Shown here: one piece after another, positions 32,265-39,010 of the stretch
Layout: every line of letters begins with the position of its first letter
Position numbering within the stretch: position 1 is the first letter of the stretch
Assembly: GCF_041261445.1 (NCBI RefSeq)
Contig: NZ_JBGCCU010000015.1
Coordinates: forward strand, 1-64,000
Length of the DNA: 64,000 bases
Direction of reading: 5' to 3'
Source of the DNA: Catenulispora sp. EB89
GTDB taxonomy: Bacteria; Actinomycetota; Actinomycetes; Streptomycetales; Catenulisporaceae
Translations under genes and position numbers: made by a program
Notes under the pieces: generated by a model
The model's database searches: none
Seen by the model: the letters and a program-made list of their open reading frames with translations, nothing else
What the model was told of the DNA's origin: nothing

Positions 32265-32840
32265 TCAGCGCGAGAGCTCCACCATCGTGTCCTCGAAGTC
32301 CGGGAACTCGTCGCGGGCTGCGGCGACCACTTCGCGGGCCGTCATGCGGTCTGTGCCGGCGTGCTTCTCGGCGATGGCTGTGAACTCCGGGTGGGGGTTG
32401 GAGCGGCGGGTGGGGTGCTCCACGGCTTCGTAGGGGCCTGAGCCGTCGGCCACCAGCCAGAGGAACGAGGGCAGGTCGCAGGCGACCACGCCGGTCTCGC
32501 CCTCCGAGCCCAGGAACACGATGGGCTGCTCGGCCAGGGGGGCTTCCTCGCGGACCAGCCAGAAGGCTGCGTAGCCGCCGTCGGCTGTCTGGCCGAAGAC
32601 GCGGAACTGGTCGGCGTCGGCGTCCGGGTTGCCGGTCCAGCCTTGGAACCAGTCGGCGGTGTCCTCGGAGTCCAGGAACTCCTCGAAGGGTTCGAAGTCC
32701 ACCGGGGGGTGTTCGGGGGCGTCGTCCTCGTCGCGCTCGTCGTCGCCCTGCTCGTCCTCGTCGGCTTCCAGGGGGAAGCCGATCGCGGCTATCGCGGCCA
32801 GCGCCGCGGGCAGGGCGAGGTCGTCGTCGTCTTCGATAGT
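32265..32840 (-). CDS. Acidic SMI1/KNR4-like (SUKH) hypothetical protein
   Basis: About 191 residues. I start it at GTG 32840 because TAATCT sits 7 nt upstream as a -10 box (leaderless), and the longer frame upstream looks noncoding. The first 70 residues are very acidic (EDDDD and DEDEQGDDERDEDD). The core ADQFRVFGQTADGGYAAFWLV, QPIVFLGSEGETGVVACDLPSFLWLVADG resembles SUKH-superfamily proteins, which include immunity proteins for contact-dependent toxins. No toxin gene is adjacent. Function is unknown. Confidence 0.65.
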   Translation of the reverse strand, partial: TIEDDDDLALPAALAAIAAIGFPLEADEDEQGDDERDEDDAPEHPPVDFEPFEEFLDSEDTADWFQGWTGNPDADADQFRVFGQTADGGYAAFWLVREEAPLAEQPIVFLGSEGETGVVACDLPSFLWLVADGSGPYEAVEHPTRRSNPHPEFTAIAEKHAGTDRMTAREVVAAARDEFPDFEDTMVELSR

Positions 32841-33002
32841 CACGAGCCGTAGATTAGCCGCGCCCGGGCCGTCTACTCCAGCCTCCCGGGGAGCATCTCG
32901 GGGTGGCGGGCCGATGGCGCGCTCCCTAGGGGTATATCCGATGGCGCCGGCGTGTGCGGTCCTGGTGAAATGGGTTGCGTAGCGTTGGGGGAGGGTGTGC
33001 CG

Positions 33003-33194
33003 ATGAACGCGGTCATCGAACGCGAGCGTCAAGGCAACGAGTGGGGTCCGGTGACCATCGTCCACACGTGGGGCGGATGGCCGTGGCGGGCTCAGTGCGA
33101 GGAGTGCACCACGCGCTCGCCGGGGCAGCGGACGCACGAGGAGGCCCAGCAGTGGGCTGAGAGCCACTATCACGCGTTCCACGAGATCGACTGA
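33003..33194 (+). CDS. Small conserved hypothetical protein
   Basis: 63 residues from ATG 33003, preceded by the strong ribosome site GGGGGAGGG. Trp-rich with one CxxC pair (NEWGPVTIVHTWGGWPWRAQCEECTTRS) and a C-terminal helix EEAQQWAESHYHAFHEID. The CxxC and His could bind a metal. It is divergent from the SUKH-like gene (162 bp apart) and ends in a shared terminator. I do not know the family's function. Confidence 0.7.
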   Translation: MNAVIERERQGNEWGPVTIVHTWGGWPWRAQCEECTTRSPGQRTHEEAQQWAESHYHAFHEID

Positions 33195-33291: not shown

Positions 33292-35955
33292 CTACTTCTG
33301 CTTGGGCAGCACCACCACGGCCAGCGGCGTACGCTGCGCGCCCTGCCCCAGCGGGTTGTCCTTGAAGATCTCCGCGATCTTCTCCTCGGCGACCGTCGTG
33401 GCCTGCCCCAGGATGTTGCACCCCAGGTCGTTGGCGTCGATGATGGCCACGCCCTGGAACGTGTCAGCAGCCTGCTTCGGCAGCGCCCGGCGCAGCCGGT
33501 CGGCCAGCTCCGAAGCCGCCTTCCCGGGGTCGGCCGGCGCCAGCTTCGCCGAGACGTTCGACGGGTACAGCGAGTACTGCGTCGGCCCGTCGATGGCCCG
33601 CACCGCGGGGCCGGCCAGCTGGTAGAACAGGCCCTTGCGGCCCACGACCTTGCCGACCGCGCCCGCCGCCGAGGCGGCCACGATCCGCGCCAGCCCCGCC
33701 TCCTGGATCGCCAGCTGCATGGTCTCCGGGGAGCCCAGCCCGATGCCGGCGGGCGTGCGGACCACGAACTTCTGCAGCTTGCGCGCCGCGAACGAGGGCT
33801 TGATCTCCCACAGGAAGTAGCTGCGGCCCTGCGAGATGGCGACAACCTTCTCGCTGACCGCCAGGAACCAGGGGCTGTTCAGCGCCTCGGCGTGGTCGTC
33901 GGACTCCGCCACCCGGGTCGCGAACTCCGCGCCGTACTCGGAGATCTTGGTGTGGAAGTCGTCGCCCTTGGCGAAGGCGTCGGTCTGGATCGGGAAACGC
34001 AGCACCTGTCCGCTGGACGGCGTGCTGATCGCGATCTCCTTGCCCGGGTTGGCCGCGAAGTACTCCTTGGCCGCCGAGGTCGTGGAGTCCACGTGGGTCC
34101 CGGGGGCGTCCACGAAGGTGCGCAGCCACAGCTCGACGTTCAGCATCCGCCAGAACAGCATCGTGTCGCTGTTCTTGCCGGAGATGAACTCCTCGAACGC
34201 GCGCAGCACCGAGGCCTGGTCGAAGTACGGCCGCGAGCCGAAGGAGTCCGAGCGGAACACCGTGTGCACGTGGTTCTTGATCCGCAGGAACCACTCGCGC
34301 TCCGGCGTGGTGAAGCCGATCTTGTTGCGGCGGTCGACGATCTGGTCCGGCAGCAGCCCGCGCACCGAGTCGCGCAGGACCTTCTTGTTCCAGCCGCCCT
34401 TGATGATCGCCTCGGGCTCCAGCGTGAACAGGTAGCGCACCAGGTTGAAGTCCAGGAAGGGCACGCGGCCCTCCAGCGAGAAGCGCATGGTGTTGCGGTC
34501 TTCGTAGCGCAGCAGCGAGGGCAGGGAGTTGGCGAAGATGTCCTCGACCAGGCGGGCCCGCAGGTCGTCCGGGACCGGGCTGAACGTCTCGGCCTTGTGC
34601 TGCTTGGCGAAGCCCTTGTCCAGCATCTGCCGGATGTCCACCGGCTTGTCCAGGCCGAGCTTGCCGCGCACCACCTGCTTGCCGTACCGGGACAGCACGT
34701 CGGTGGAGGAGACGACCTCGCGCATCAGCTTCGTGTACTGCTTCTGCTTGCGCAGCTGGCGCAGGTAGACGAAGTAGTACGGCAGGTAGCCGGCCATCAT
34801 CTCGTCCGCGCCCTGGCCGTCGAGCAGGACGGTGACGTGCTTGGTGGCCTCCTGCATGACCTTGTACTGCGCGTAGGGGCCGGTGGAGATGGTCGGCTCT
34901 TCCTGCGTGCGCACGAAGTCGGCGAGGTCCTCCAGGAACTCGTCCGGGTTCGGGTGGATCTTGTGGCACTCGATCGGGCCGTCGGCCTTCGCCATGACTG
35001 CGTCGACGTAGCGCTCCTCGTCGTTGACGCTGCCGGGGAACACCGCGGAGAAGCTGTTCTGCGTCGCGCCGACCGACTCCACGTCCTGCGCGTGCTGCTT
35101 CATCAGCTTGCTGATCACCGCGACCACGGTCGAGGAGTCCAGGCCCCCGGACAGCGCGGTGCCCACCGGCACCTCGCCGACCAGGCGCATCCGGATCGAC
35201 TCGGTGAGCCGCTCCTTGAACTCCTTGGTGGTGTCCTTGGTGAACGGCGAGCGCGGGCCGTCGGCCAGCAGGTCCTCGCGCAGCGTGGTGAACATGCGGC
35301 GCTGCACGTCGGCACCGTCGATGACGACGACCTCACCCGGGCGGACCTTCTCGATCCCGGCGAAGAAGGTGCGGTCGGAGTCCTCGTGGATGCGGAAGCG
35401 CAGGTAGCGGTAGAGGGTGGCGTCGTCCGGAGCCGCCTGGACCAGGCCGGAGGCCAGGATCGCCTTGATCTCCGAGCCGAAGACCAGCCGGTGGCTGTCG
35501 TCGGCGCCGGTGACCGAGGCCAGGTAGAGCGGCTTGATGCCGAAGTGGTCGCGCGCCAGGTAGCTCTTGCCGGTCTCGGCGTCGTGGATGGCCACCGCGA
35601 ACATGCCGTTGAACCGGTCGAAGGCCGCCTCGCCCCACTCGGCGAAGGCGCGGACCACGACCTCGGTGTCGCAGACCGTGCGGAAGGTGTGGCCGAGGGC
35701 TTCCAGCTCGGCCATCAGCTCCCGGTAGTTGTAGACCTCGCCGTTGTAGACGGCGGCGTAGCGGCCGTCCTCGGTGAGGAAGGGCTGGTCGCCGTGGGCC
35801 CGGTCGATGATCGCCAGGCGGCGGTGGGCGTAACCGACGTTCGATCCGTCGCTGTAGACGCCCTCGCCGTCGGGCCCCCGGTGGGCGATGGCGTCGCCCA
35901 TCCGCTTGAGCATGGCCTCGTCATGAGCCCCGAAGACACCCGCGATACCGCACAT
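33292..35955 (-). CDS. asnB: Asparagine synthetase (glutamine-hydrolysing) fused to a CofE-like domain
   Basis: About 887 residues, 250 longer than ordinary AsnB. ATG 35955 is chosen so that Cys2 becomes the N-terminal nucleophile of the glutaminase domain (MCGIAGVFG), and GAGGAGTG precedes it. RLAIID, AVYNGEVYNYREL and CDTEVVVRAFAEWG complete the glutaminase site. The synthetase domain has the ATP pyrophosphatase loop SGGLDSS at 269-275. From about residue 637 a different domain begins: EIKPSFAARKLQKFVVRTPAGIGLGSPETMQLAI, GRKGLFYQLAGPAVRAIDGPTQY, YPSNVSAKLAPADPG, IIDANDLGCNILGQ and FKDNPLGQG match coenzyme F420-0 gamma-glutamyl ligase-like proteins. The reading frame is continuous. The second activity is unproven. 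Confidence 0.9.
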   Translation of the reverse strand: MCGIAGVFGAHDEAMLKRMGDAIAHRGPDGEGVYSDGSNVGYAHRRLAIIDRAHGDQPFLTEDGRYAAVYNGEVYNYRELMAELEALGHTFRTVCDTEVVVRAFAEWGEAAFDRFNGMFAVAIHDAETGKSYLARDHFGIKPLYLASVTGADDSHRLVFGSEIKAILASGLVQAAPDDATLYRYLRFRIHEDSDRTFFAGIEKVRPGEVVVIDGADVQRRMFTTLREDLLADGPRSPFTKDTTKEFKERLTESIRMRLVGEVPVGTALSGGLDSSTVVAVISKLMKQHAQDVESVGATQNSFSAVFPGSVNDEERYVDAVMAKADGPIECHKIHPNPDEFLEDLADFVRTQEEPTISTGPYAQYKVMQEATKHVTVLLDGQGADEMMAGYLPYYFVYLRQLRKQKQYTKLMREVVSSTDVLSRYGKQVVRGKLGLDKPVDIRQMLDKGFAKQHKAETFSPVPDDLRARLVEDIFANSLPSLLRYEDRNTMRFSLEGRVPFLDFNLVRYLFTLEPEAIIKGGWNKKVLRDSVRGLLPDQIVDRRNKIGFTTPEREWFLRIKNHVHTVFRSDSFGSRPYFDQASVLRAFEEFISGKNSDTMLFWRMLNVELWLRTFVDAPGTHVDSTTSAAKEYFAANPGKEIAISTPSSGQVLRFPIQTDAFAKGDDFHTKISEYGAEFATRVAESDDHAEALNSPWFLAVSEKVVAISQGRSYFLWEIKPSFAARKLQKFVVRTPAGIGLGSPETMQLAIQEAGLARIVAASAAGAVGKVVGRKGLFYQLAGPAVRAIDGPTQYSLYPSNVSAKLAPADPGKAASELADRLRRALPKQAADTFQGVAIIDANDLGCNILGQATTVAEEKIAEIFKDNPLGQGAQRTPLAVVVLPKQK

Positions 35956-36228
35956 GTACCGTGCCACTCCTCGCCGTAATAGAACCTGCCGCGCTGAGCC
36001 AAACCTATACGACGAGCGGGTGACGCCTGTGCGACGTCGAGTAGTGTGATCTTCGAGCGGGCAGAGGTACCCCGTGAGCTGTCCCGTCGCCCCCCGCACC
36101 CGTGTGATCGGTGTGGGCGCCCGGCCCGGCGTGGGATCTTCCGACGTTGCTACCATCGGAGTCGGAGGCGAATTTCCAGCGCATCCGCCCATGCCGGACG
36201 CCACGGCTACCGATCCGGGGGGACGACG

Positions 36229-37440
36229 ATGGCGAATGAGACCGTGACCGACAGGGCGCAGGACCCGCTCGACGCCGGTTCCGGCACAGCTCGCGAACCC
36301 GGGGGCGCAGTGGAGGCACCCGGCGCCGCCGTCGGCGGCGACCCCGTCCGGACCGCGGATGCCGAGGCTGCGACCGACACGGCCACGGGCACCGATGGCG
36401 CGCTCCCCCTGGACCCGCAGGCTGCCGCCGCAGCCGCAGCTCCGGGGCTCGCCGCCAAGGCCGACCGCACGGCCGCCGAGGCCGATCGCACGGCCGCCGG
36501 CGCGAAGCCCGCCGCCGACGGCGCTGCCAATGCCGACGCCGATGCCGAAACCGACGCCAAGACCGACGCCAAGACCGACGCCGAAACCAGCTCCGTGCTC
36601 GCCCTGGACCCGCAGGCCGCCGCCGCCGTCGCGGCCGCGGACCTGGCCGTCGACGCGGACCGCGCCGCGGAGGCGAACGGCGCCGCCGACGCGTTCCTCG
36701 CCGATGCCGACCCGGACGCCGCGCCCCAGCGCAACCCGGTGGTCCGCGCCGCCACGGCCGTGGCCCGCACCTTCGCCCACGACATGGTCGTCTTCTTCTC
36801 GGTCCCGGTCCGCGAGGTCCGCACGAAGCACCTGCTGGCCATCCCGGCCACGCTGATCTGCGTGGCGACCATCGGCGTGCTGTGGATCCTGGAGCTGATC
36901 CGGCCCACCGGGCTGGCGTTCGTGCTGGACGTCGCCGGCGTGCGCCAGGGCGAGCCGATCTGGAAGCTGCTCCCCCAGCTCCCGCTGTCCCTGTTCGCCC
37001 CGGCCCCGGACCTGCCGGCCTGGGGCGCGATGGCGCAGGTGCTGATCGCCTTCGGGATCGCGGAGTGCTGGCTGGGCTGGAAGAAGATGATCGCGATCGC
37101 GATGATCACCAGCGCGGTGACCTCGATGGCCGCCCGGGTGATGGTCTACGCCAGCAACTGGCTGCACATCGGCACCCCGCAGATCGACAACTTCCAGGTC
37201 GACACCGGCCCCTCGGTAGCGGTGGTGTCGCTGCTGATCTACCTGGCGCTGCGGCTGCGGACGTACTGGGTGGTGGCGCTGACCGCGGTGTCGATGGGCG
37301 GCGAGGCGGCGATCCTGCCGAACCTGGCCGGACGCGAGCACCTGGTGGCGATCAGCCTGGGCATCATCACGTACTTCCTGCTGGACCGGTGGTGGCCGGC
37401 GTGGAAGCGACGACGGATCGAGCGGGCGACGTCGGACTGA
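36229..37440 (+). CDS. Multi-pass membrane protein with disordered Ala/Asp-rich head
   Basis: About 403 residues from ATG 36229 (GGGGGGAC upstream). The first 170 residues are low complexity, rich in Ala, Asp and Thr, with an internal duplication (LPLDPQAAAAAAAPGLAAKADR near 58 and LALDPQAAAAVAAADLAVDADR near 122). The second half has about five or six hydrophobic helices: HLLAIPATLICVATIGVLWI, MAQVLIAFGIAECWLGW, IAIAMITSAVTSMAARVMVY, VAVVSLLIYLALRL and LVAISLGIITYFLL, ending in a basic tail. It recalls rhomboid-like membrane proteins but the serine protease motif is not clear. Function unknown. It is divergent from the asparagine synthetase gene. Confidence 0.7.
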   Translation: MANETVTDRAQDPLDAGSGTAREPGGAVEAPGAAVGGDPVRTADAEAATDTATGTDGALPLDPQAAAAAAAPGLAAKADRTAAEADRTAAGAKPAADGAANADADAETDAKTDAKTDAETSSVLALDPQAAAAVAAADLAVDADRAAEANGAADAFLADADPDAAPQRNPVVRAATAVARTFAHDMVVFFSVPVREVRTKHLLAIPATLICVATIGVLWILELIRPTGLAFVLDVAGVRQGEPIWKLLPQLPLSLFAPAPDLPAWGAMAQVLIAFGIAECWLGWKKMIAIAMITSAVTSMAARVMVYASNWLHIGTPQIDNFQVDTGPSVAVVSLLIYLALRLRTYWVVALTAVSMGGEAAILPNLAGREHLVAISLGIITYFLLDRWWPAWKRRRIERATSD

Positions 37441-38929: not shown

Positions 38930-38937
38930 CCATGGAG

Positions 38938-39010
38938 GGTGAGCGACGGGGCTCGAACCCGCGACAACTGGGATCACAACCCAGGACTCTACCAACTGAG
39001 CTACGCCCAC
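38938..39010 (-). tRNA. tRNA-His (anticodon GTG)
   Basis: On the minus strand GTGGGCG (acceptor) pairs with CGCTCAC, the D arm is GCTCAGTTGGTAGAGT, the anticodon stem-loop is CTGGG-TTGTGAT-CCCAG with anticodon GTG, and the T arm is GCGGG-TTCGAGC-CCCGT. An extra G at position -1 (39011) faces C73, the identity element of tRNA-His. CCA is not encoded. The neighbour orn is the usual neighbour of tRNA-His in actinobacteria. Confidence 0.97.

Follow-up and report, generated by a model that had tools for sequence, protein, structure and literature searches.

N-acetylglutaminylglutamine (NAGGN) amidotransferases (TIGR03104) are members of the AsnB family whose substrate has no free alpha-amino group. 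A peptide ligase (ngg) is annotated beside them, and this partner is not known to have the CofE fold. In the AsnH/AsnB1 systems, an AsnB-family enzyme amidates a residue of a peptidoglycan precursor, and this step is linked to that of a ligase (PMC4155827). In human asparagine synthetase (ASNS), Glu-364 is essential, given that both E364A and E364Q are inactive, and modelling places it next to the ligand's amino group (PMC6748925). For CofE, it is known that residues G153-C155 contact the F420 ring (PMC10861534), and a chlamydial CofE homologue (COG1478) has been proposed to carry out folate polyglutamylation (PMC1971073).

The DNA analysed here, a stretch of 64,000 nucleotides from Catenulispora sp. 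EB89 (hereafter the window), holds a gene in which an AsnB-like amidotransferase is fused to a divergent CofE-like domain. Based on its Pfam and NCBIfam matches, the product would be labelled an asparagine synthase or an F420 ligase, and the evidence favours neither. The enzyme is widespread and often the sole AsnB-family protein of reduced Patescibacteria genomes, so a wrong name would distort what is predicted about asparagine synthesis and F420 use in that group.

The fused gene and its two halves

A sequence-only reading had proposed one continuous frame of 887 codons, and this is what the window contains (Table 1), with zero internal stops and a single terminal one. The translation contains MCGIAG (with Cys2), NGE, SGGLDSS, and all four motifs that this reading had named in the C-terminal part. 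The frame is open further upstream, to 1385 codons, only as an effect of high GC content, which keeps the strand opposite a gene free of stops; 35955 is the correct start, since a class II GATase requires Cys at position 2. A sequencing or frame artefact, which a stop or frameshift near residue 637 would have revealed, was ruled out: the same unbroken fusion occurs in all 10 of the 10 Catenulispora genomes searched (the window's own included), at 92-98% identity. Among the named Catenulispora loci the C domain is 93-99% identical. Pairwise dN/dS in this genus is about 0.04-0.19 in both halves, and therefore both the AsnB and the CofE-like half are under purifying selection there.

Table 1. Features of the fused gene (window positions)
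Feature	Position	Strand	Residues	Details
Fused gene, AsnB-like amidotransferase + CofE-like domain	33292..35955	-		887 codons, stop codon included
Ribosome-binding site GAGGAG	35967..35972	-		11 nt upstream of ATG; from sequence reading
Class II glutaminase domain	35341..35955	-	about 1-205	Cys2 + NGE; PF13537/PF13522, motif census
PP-loop synthetase domain	34111..35238	-	about 240-615	PF00733 E 4.6e-67; model pLDDT 88; Foldseek 7ylz/1ct9
PP-loop SGGLDSS	35131..35151	-	269-275
DGQGADE	34801..34821	-	379-385	Gln381 (34813-34815) at human ASNS Glu-364 position
Interdomain linker region	34003..34110	-	about 616-651	model confidence low at 622-627
CofE-like domain	33295..34032	-	642-887
SEKVVAISQGRS motif	33820..33855	-	701-712	conserved
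IDGPT motif	33580..33594	-	788-792	Asp789 aligns with Asp of CofE AGVDASN
DANDLG motif	33421..33438	-	840-845	Asp840 aligns with Asp of CofE ITDTNG
DNPLGQG motif	33340..33360	-	866-872	conserved

The identity of the AsnB half, for which a HMMER search with PF00733 and PF13537 had been suggested as a check, is clear. Pfam assigns GATase_7, GATase_6, and Asn_synthase to the first 612 residues (PF13537 at E 8.3e-44; for PF00733 see Table 1), and the motif census finds the catalytic motifs of the Catenulispora protein (Cys2, PP-loop) intact. The half scores 416.9 bits against the NCBI asparagine synthase model (TIGR01536; cut-off 267.1) and 319.3 bits against TIGR03104, below the cut-off of 570.1. 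The best structural matches to the full-length model in Foldseek are AsnB-family proteins, with TsnB9 (7ylz) first. In a quick tree with some long branches, a single clade (SH-aLRT 99) unites the AsnB halves of 29 fusions with the products of two adjacent genes, and six other AsnB proteins lie outside it.

The assignment of the C-terminal part to a CofE-like domain is borne out as well, for a divergent member. PF01996 scores 28.7 bits (E 1.2e-6) with the C-terminal part alone and 24.0 bits with the whole protein (cut-off 25). A PDB search with the single C-domain sequence gave no match; with a profile of ten relatives, it returned CofE only (7uld, 2phn, 2g9i; E 2-3e-4). Structure prediction, which the earlier reading had suggested as a check, gave a CofE fold: in a Foldseek search of the PDB with the model of the C domain (from a 46-sequence alignment, pLDDT 92), CofE entries alone fell below E 0.001, the best at E 9.8e-8 (probability 1.00, TM 0.54, 16% identity). 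Alignment with hhalign against 20 CofE/FbiB sequences gave a probability of 93 and E 3.5e-7 over 122 columns. The CofE loop GRC (G153-C155), shortly after the Asp of ITDTNG, is Asp-Leu-Gly here, and the pattern D-x-G is conserved in the relatives. From the aligned Asp residues, the fold, and the loop change, we take the fold to be shared, nucleotide/metal chemistry to be plausible, and the F420 contact to be lost. Ligase chemistry is thus a plausible prediction for this domain, given a CofE similarity that is weak (the TM and identity values above) and an active-site loop that is partly replaced.

Within the genus, the genes around the fusion are less conserved than the fusion itself (about 65-92%). 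The downstream gene (32265-33182, minus strand; 305 aa, 65-92% conserved within the genus) is possibly co-transcribed with it. The product of the divergent neighbour (36046-37440, plus strand) is variable and rich in Ala and Asp in the middle, and its C-terminal half is conserved. Neither product matched Pfam or NCBIfam. The sole tRNA of the window is tRNA-His (GTG), at 38937-39010 on the minus strand.

Distribution, neighbourhoods, and decay of the AsnB half

The C-terminal domain was found in 25 of the 396 Actinomycetota genomes sampled. Of 573 stretches confirmed when 84,980 species genomes were scanned, the 80 best were retained. As the sequence-only reading had proposed checking, the same architecture recurs elsewhere, in Actinomycetota, Coriobacteriales, Patescibacteria, Chloroflexota, and Bacillota. 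Among the matches listed, the carriers of a fusion are Catenulispora, Sinomonas, Arthrobacter, Terrabacter, Flexivirga, Brachybacterium, Geodermatophilus, Stackebrandtia, Coriobacteriales, Patescibacteria (Roizmanbacteria, Saccharibacteria, and Nomurabacteria), Symbiobacterium, Eubacteriales, and Chloroflexota. In two loci (L036, L128) AsnB is a separate, adjacent gene, and many Clostridia and Microbacterium have the CofE-like domain alone. In the C-domain tree, the main fused clade (100/98) mixes standalone forms with fusions whose AsnB half is either intact or dead (L093, which lies at a contig end, should not be taken as standalone). Two loci of Patescibacteria (L083, L086) group with actinobacterial forms, away from the Microgenomates clade, in both the C-domain and the AsnB trees, a placement that suggests transfer.

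No relative was found on viral contigs, and no C-domain relative on plasmids. MT835656.1 (L165), filed as a human-faeces bacteriophage, carries the AsnB-CofE-like fusion in full on DNA of high GC content and is probably a mislabelled bacterial contig. More distant CofE-like domains end the long proteins of L042, L048, and L050, the N-terminal part of which is repeat-like (TPR-like by eye).

Comparison of neighbour genes between lineages revealed no common pathway. In Microgenomates, gatCAB lies downstream, and the locus comprises LemA, an M48 peptidase, a CofE-like gene with or without a fused AsnB half, and then gatC-gatA-gatB. The order LemA - M48 peptidase - (AsnB)-CofE-like - gatC-gatA-gatB is common to L064, L067, L084, L088, L100, L101, and L105. 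The glutamyl-tRNA synthetase gene (gltX) is upstream in L116 and L134. Beside standalone CofE-like genes in Clostridia and Microbacterium there is an ATP-grasp gene (PF14397), and one or two such genes directly adjoin the CofE-like gene at L121:8820-10639, L129:3891-5607, L135:9941-11660, and L131:11712-12719. In Microbacterium, an alanine-racemase-like gene follows the CofE-like/ATP-grasp genes; a penicillin-binding protein occurs in L138, NlpC/P60 in L079, and a phosphoglucomutase/GlmM-like gene in L114. As context for a role like that of the peptidoglycan amidotransferases AsnH, AsnB1, and LtsA, these cell-envelope neighbours of some homologues (penicillin-binding protein, NlpC/P60, GlmM-like gene, racemase) are suggestive only.

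The two halves do not share the same fate. Cys2 and/or the PP-loop are broken in seven AsnB halves (L063, L065, L066, L072, L085, L087, L095), and, with L066 and L087 as the exceptions, identity in the AsnB part is down to 25-36%; the C domains of all seven are 50-60% identical to that of Catenulispora. AsnB is absent from L069, L080, L100, L101, and L105, where the CofE-like domain is kept (again 50-60% identical). In one pair of Brachybacterium species, the AsnB parts share 34% identity and the C domains 80%. Decay or loss of AsnB with the C domain kept therefore marks the C domain as the constant activity. The seven dead-AsnB fusions are natural loss-of-function forms, and intact and dead AsnB halves offer natural control pairs for tracing the product. 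Within Brachybacterium, for example, the half is intact in B. epidermidis and dead in Brachybacterium sp. SGAir0954.

What the fusion may do

The position of human ASNS Glu-364 is informative about what the AsnB half amidates. Across the 44 catalytically intact fusions, it is Gln in 36, His in 6, Leu in 2, and Glu in none. Two AsnB proteins that lie outside the fusion clade keep Glu: another AsnB of the Catenulispora genome (C9; SGESADE) and the one beside the Coriobacteriales fusion (SGEGADE). Streptomyces NAGGN amidotransferases, which score about 950 bits against TIGR03104 and likewise exceed the TIGR01536 cut-off, have Gln at this position (SGQGADE). Judging from these residues, we infer that the carboxylate amidated by the fused AsnB half has no free amino group next to it; with Gln in place of Glu where aspartate would bind, plain asparagine synthesis is a doubtful activity for the fusion.

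The reading that we prefer, and to which we give an about even chance, is that the ligase adds a residue, probably acidic, to an acceptor other than F420 and that the AsnB half caps a carboxylate as an amide. The C-terminal domain, given its fold and two conserved Asp residues, would be an NTP- and metal-dependent amide ligase joining the amino acid to a carboxylate of the acceptor. The AsnB-family half would hydrolyse glutamine, channel the ammonia, and adenylate a carboxylate without a free alpha-amino group to give a primary amide, most simply on the same ligated product; ligation probably precedes capping. Ligation would be the core activity and amide capping an optional trimming, which is why AsnB could decay or vanish. 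In favour of this reading are a fusion or adjacency that is conserved across phyla, the single AsnB clade, the CofE homology, the Glu-364 change, the repeated decay of AsnB, purifying selection on both halves in the genus, the ATP-grasp neighbours of standalone forms, and the precedents of AsnH/AsnB1 and NAGGN synthesis for a ligase followed by AsnB-family amidation; against it are the TIGR01536 score above cut-off (shared by NAGGN amidotransferases), the status of the fusion as sole full-size PF00733 protein in several genomes, the varying neighbours, and the weak CofE similarity with its partly replaced loop. By analogy with AsnH and AsnB1, a cell-envelope precursor is our leading but weak guess for the acceptor; we keep a peptidoglycan role low because the peptidoglycan types of the carriers have, to our knowledge, no feature in common. 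The general idea of the sequence-only reading, in which amidotransfer and amide ligation are coupled on a cofactor or peptide, fits this evidence, but its link to F420 fails (see below). The broader proposal of an undescribed amide-building pathway common to Actinomycetota and Patescibacteria, in which a CofE-fold ligase that has left F420 metabolism adds a residue to a precursor of the cell envelope or of a cofactor and the AsnB half fused to it caps the product as an amide, is tentative, and we would sooner bet against it than for it. If true, decay of the cap would alter the charge of the product between species.

Other readings give the AsnB half a different part. It could be an ordinary asparagine synthetase that feeds free Asn to the fused ligase, with asparagine or another amide as the amine substrate, as the TIGR01536 score would allow. 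Moreover, several genomes of Patescibacteria, Sinomonas, Brachybacterium, and Intrasporangium have no full-size PF00733 protein besides the fusion, so that asparagine synthesis is possible in those organisms. Yet Gln, His, or Leu replaces Glu-364, where Gln abolishes the activity of human ASNS, and the Catenulispora genome has C9 as another AsnB. Carriers in the main clade have no AsnRS above cut-off, so free Asn may be unneeded for tRNA charging there. Overall, AsnRS is above cut-off in 3 of 25 genomes and has sub-cut-off matches in all 25, and AsnRS and AsnB counts neither favour nor refute asparagine supply for tRNA. We consider the asparagine-feeding explanation unlikely. Similarly unlikely is a compatible-solute enzyme resembling the NAGGN system, in which the CofE-like domain would make a short peptide and the AsnB half would amidate its C-terminus. 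The order of ligase then AsnB and the Glu-to-Gln signature would be the same, and the three best Streptomyces AsnB matches tested are NAGGN amidotransferases (TIGR03104), but the fusion itself fails that model (319 vs 570 bits), an osmolyte role would be ill-suited to reduced Patescibacteria genomes, and AsnB is lost or decayed in places. Fusion and adjacency also suggest channelling, and the AsnB half might provide its ammonia, or its tunnel, to the CofE-like site, so that one amide is made from one carboxylate; we regard this as improbable, given that the AsnB half retains a complete synthetase site of its own and that the CofE-like domain persists without AsnB.

The two readings that follow from the known roles of the CofE fold fare worst. 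A role in amidating or lengthening the F420 polyglutamate tail would suit the fold and a genome that has FbiB. However, this FbiB is canonical and encoded separately, elsewhere in the Catenulispora genome (187.9 bits), the F420-contacting loop of the fusion is replaced, and the F420 pathway gene CofH is unmatched in 15 of the 23 carrier genomes (completeness not stated), including 8 of 8 Patescibacteria, and is above cut-off in 5 of the 23. On these grounds, the F420 link suggested in the sequence-only reading was rejected, and we rate it as very improbable. Folate polyglutamylation has a precedent in COG1478, and folC above cut-off is missing in 7 of 8 Patescibacteria tested; against this, all actinobacterial carriers tested have folC above cut-off and AsnB would be left without a role, which makes the folate explanation unlikely in the extreme.

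Comparison with described enzymes

The architecture had been put forward as undescribed. A search of the open-access literature found no paper on an AsnB-CofE-like fusion, in agreement with that claim, although the fusion is not peculiar to the Catenulispora genome. Both folds are known; as far as searched, there is no description of the two as a stable pair, of the altered residues, or of a distribution free of F420.

The nearest solved AsnB-family structure to the AsnB half is that of the hydroxyamidotransferase TsnB9 (7ylz), which, unlike the fusion, has no CofE-like domain and keeps Glu (SGEAADE). With AsnB/ASNS (TIGR01536), the fusion shares the Cys2 glutaminase, the PP-loop, and the overall fold, and it differs in having Gln for Glu-364, in forming a separate clade, and in its extra C-terminal domain. 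AsnH/AsnB1, compared by description, are alike in ligase-linked amidation by an AsnB-family enzyme; in contrast to the fusion, they are unfused, and their partners are ATP-grasp or Mur ligases. NAGGN amidotransferases resemble the fusion in family, in Gln at the Glu-364 position, and in having a peptide-ligase partner, whereas the fusion scores below the cut-off of their model. With CofE and the N-terminal domain of FbiB (PF01996, COG1478), the C domain shares the fold, the order of motifs, two aligned Asp residues, and an EK/GR segment, but it is only 15-18% identical (TM about 0.54). The GRPWR-type (GRxWR) loop of CofE by the F420 ring is DLG in the fusion, and the fusion family has motifs of its own (TPAGIGLGxPETM, IDGPT, DANDxG, and DNPLGQG) and is present without F420 genes.
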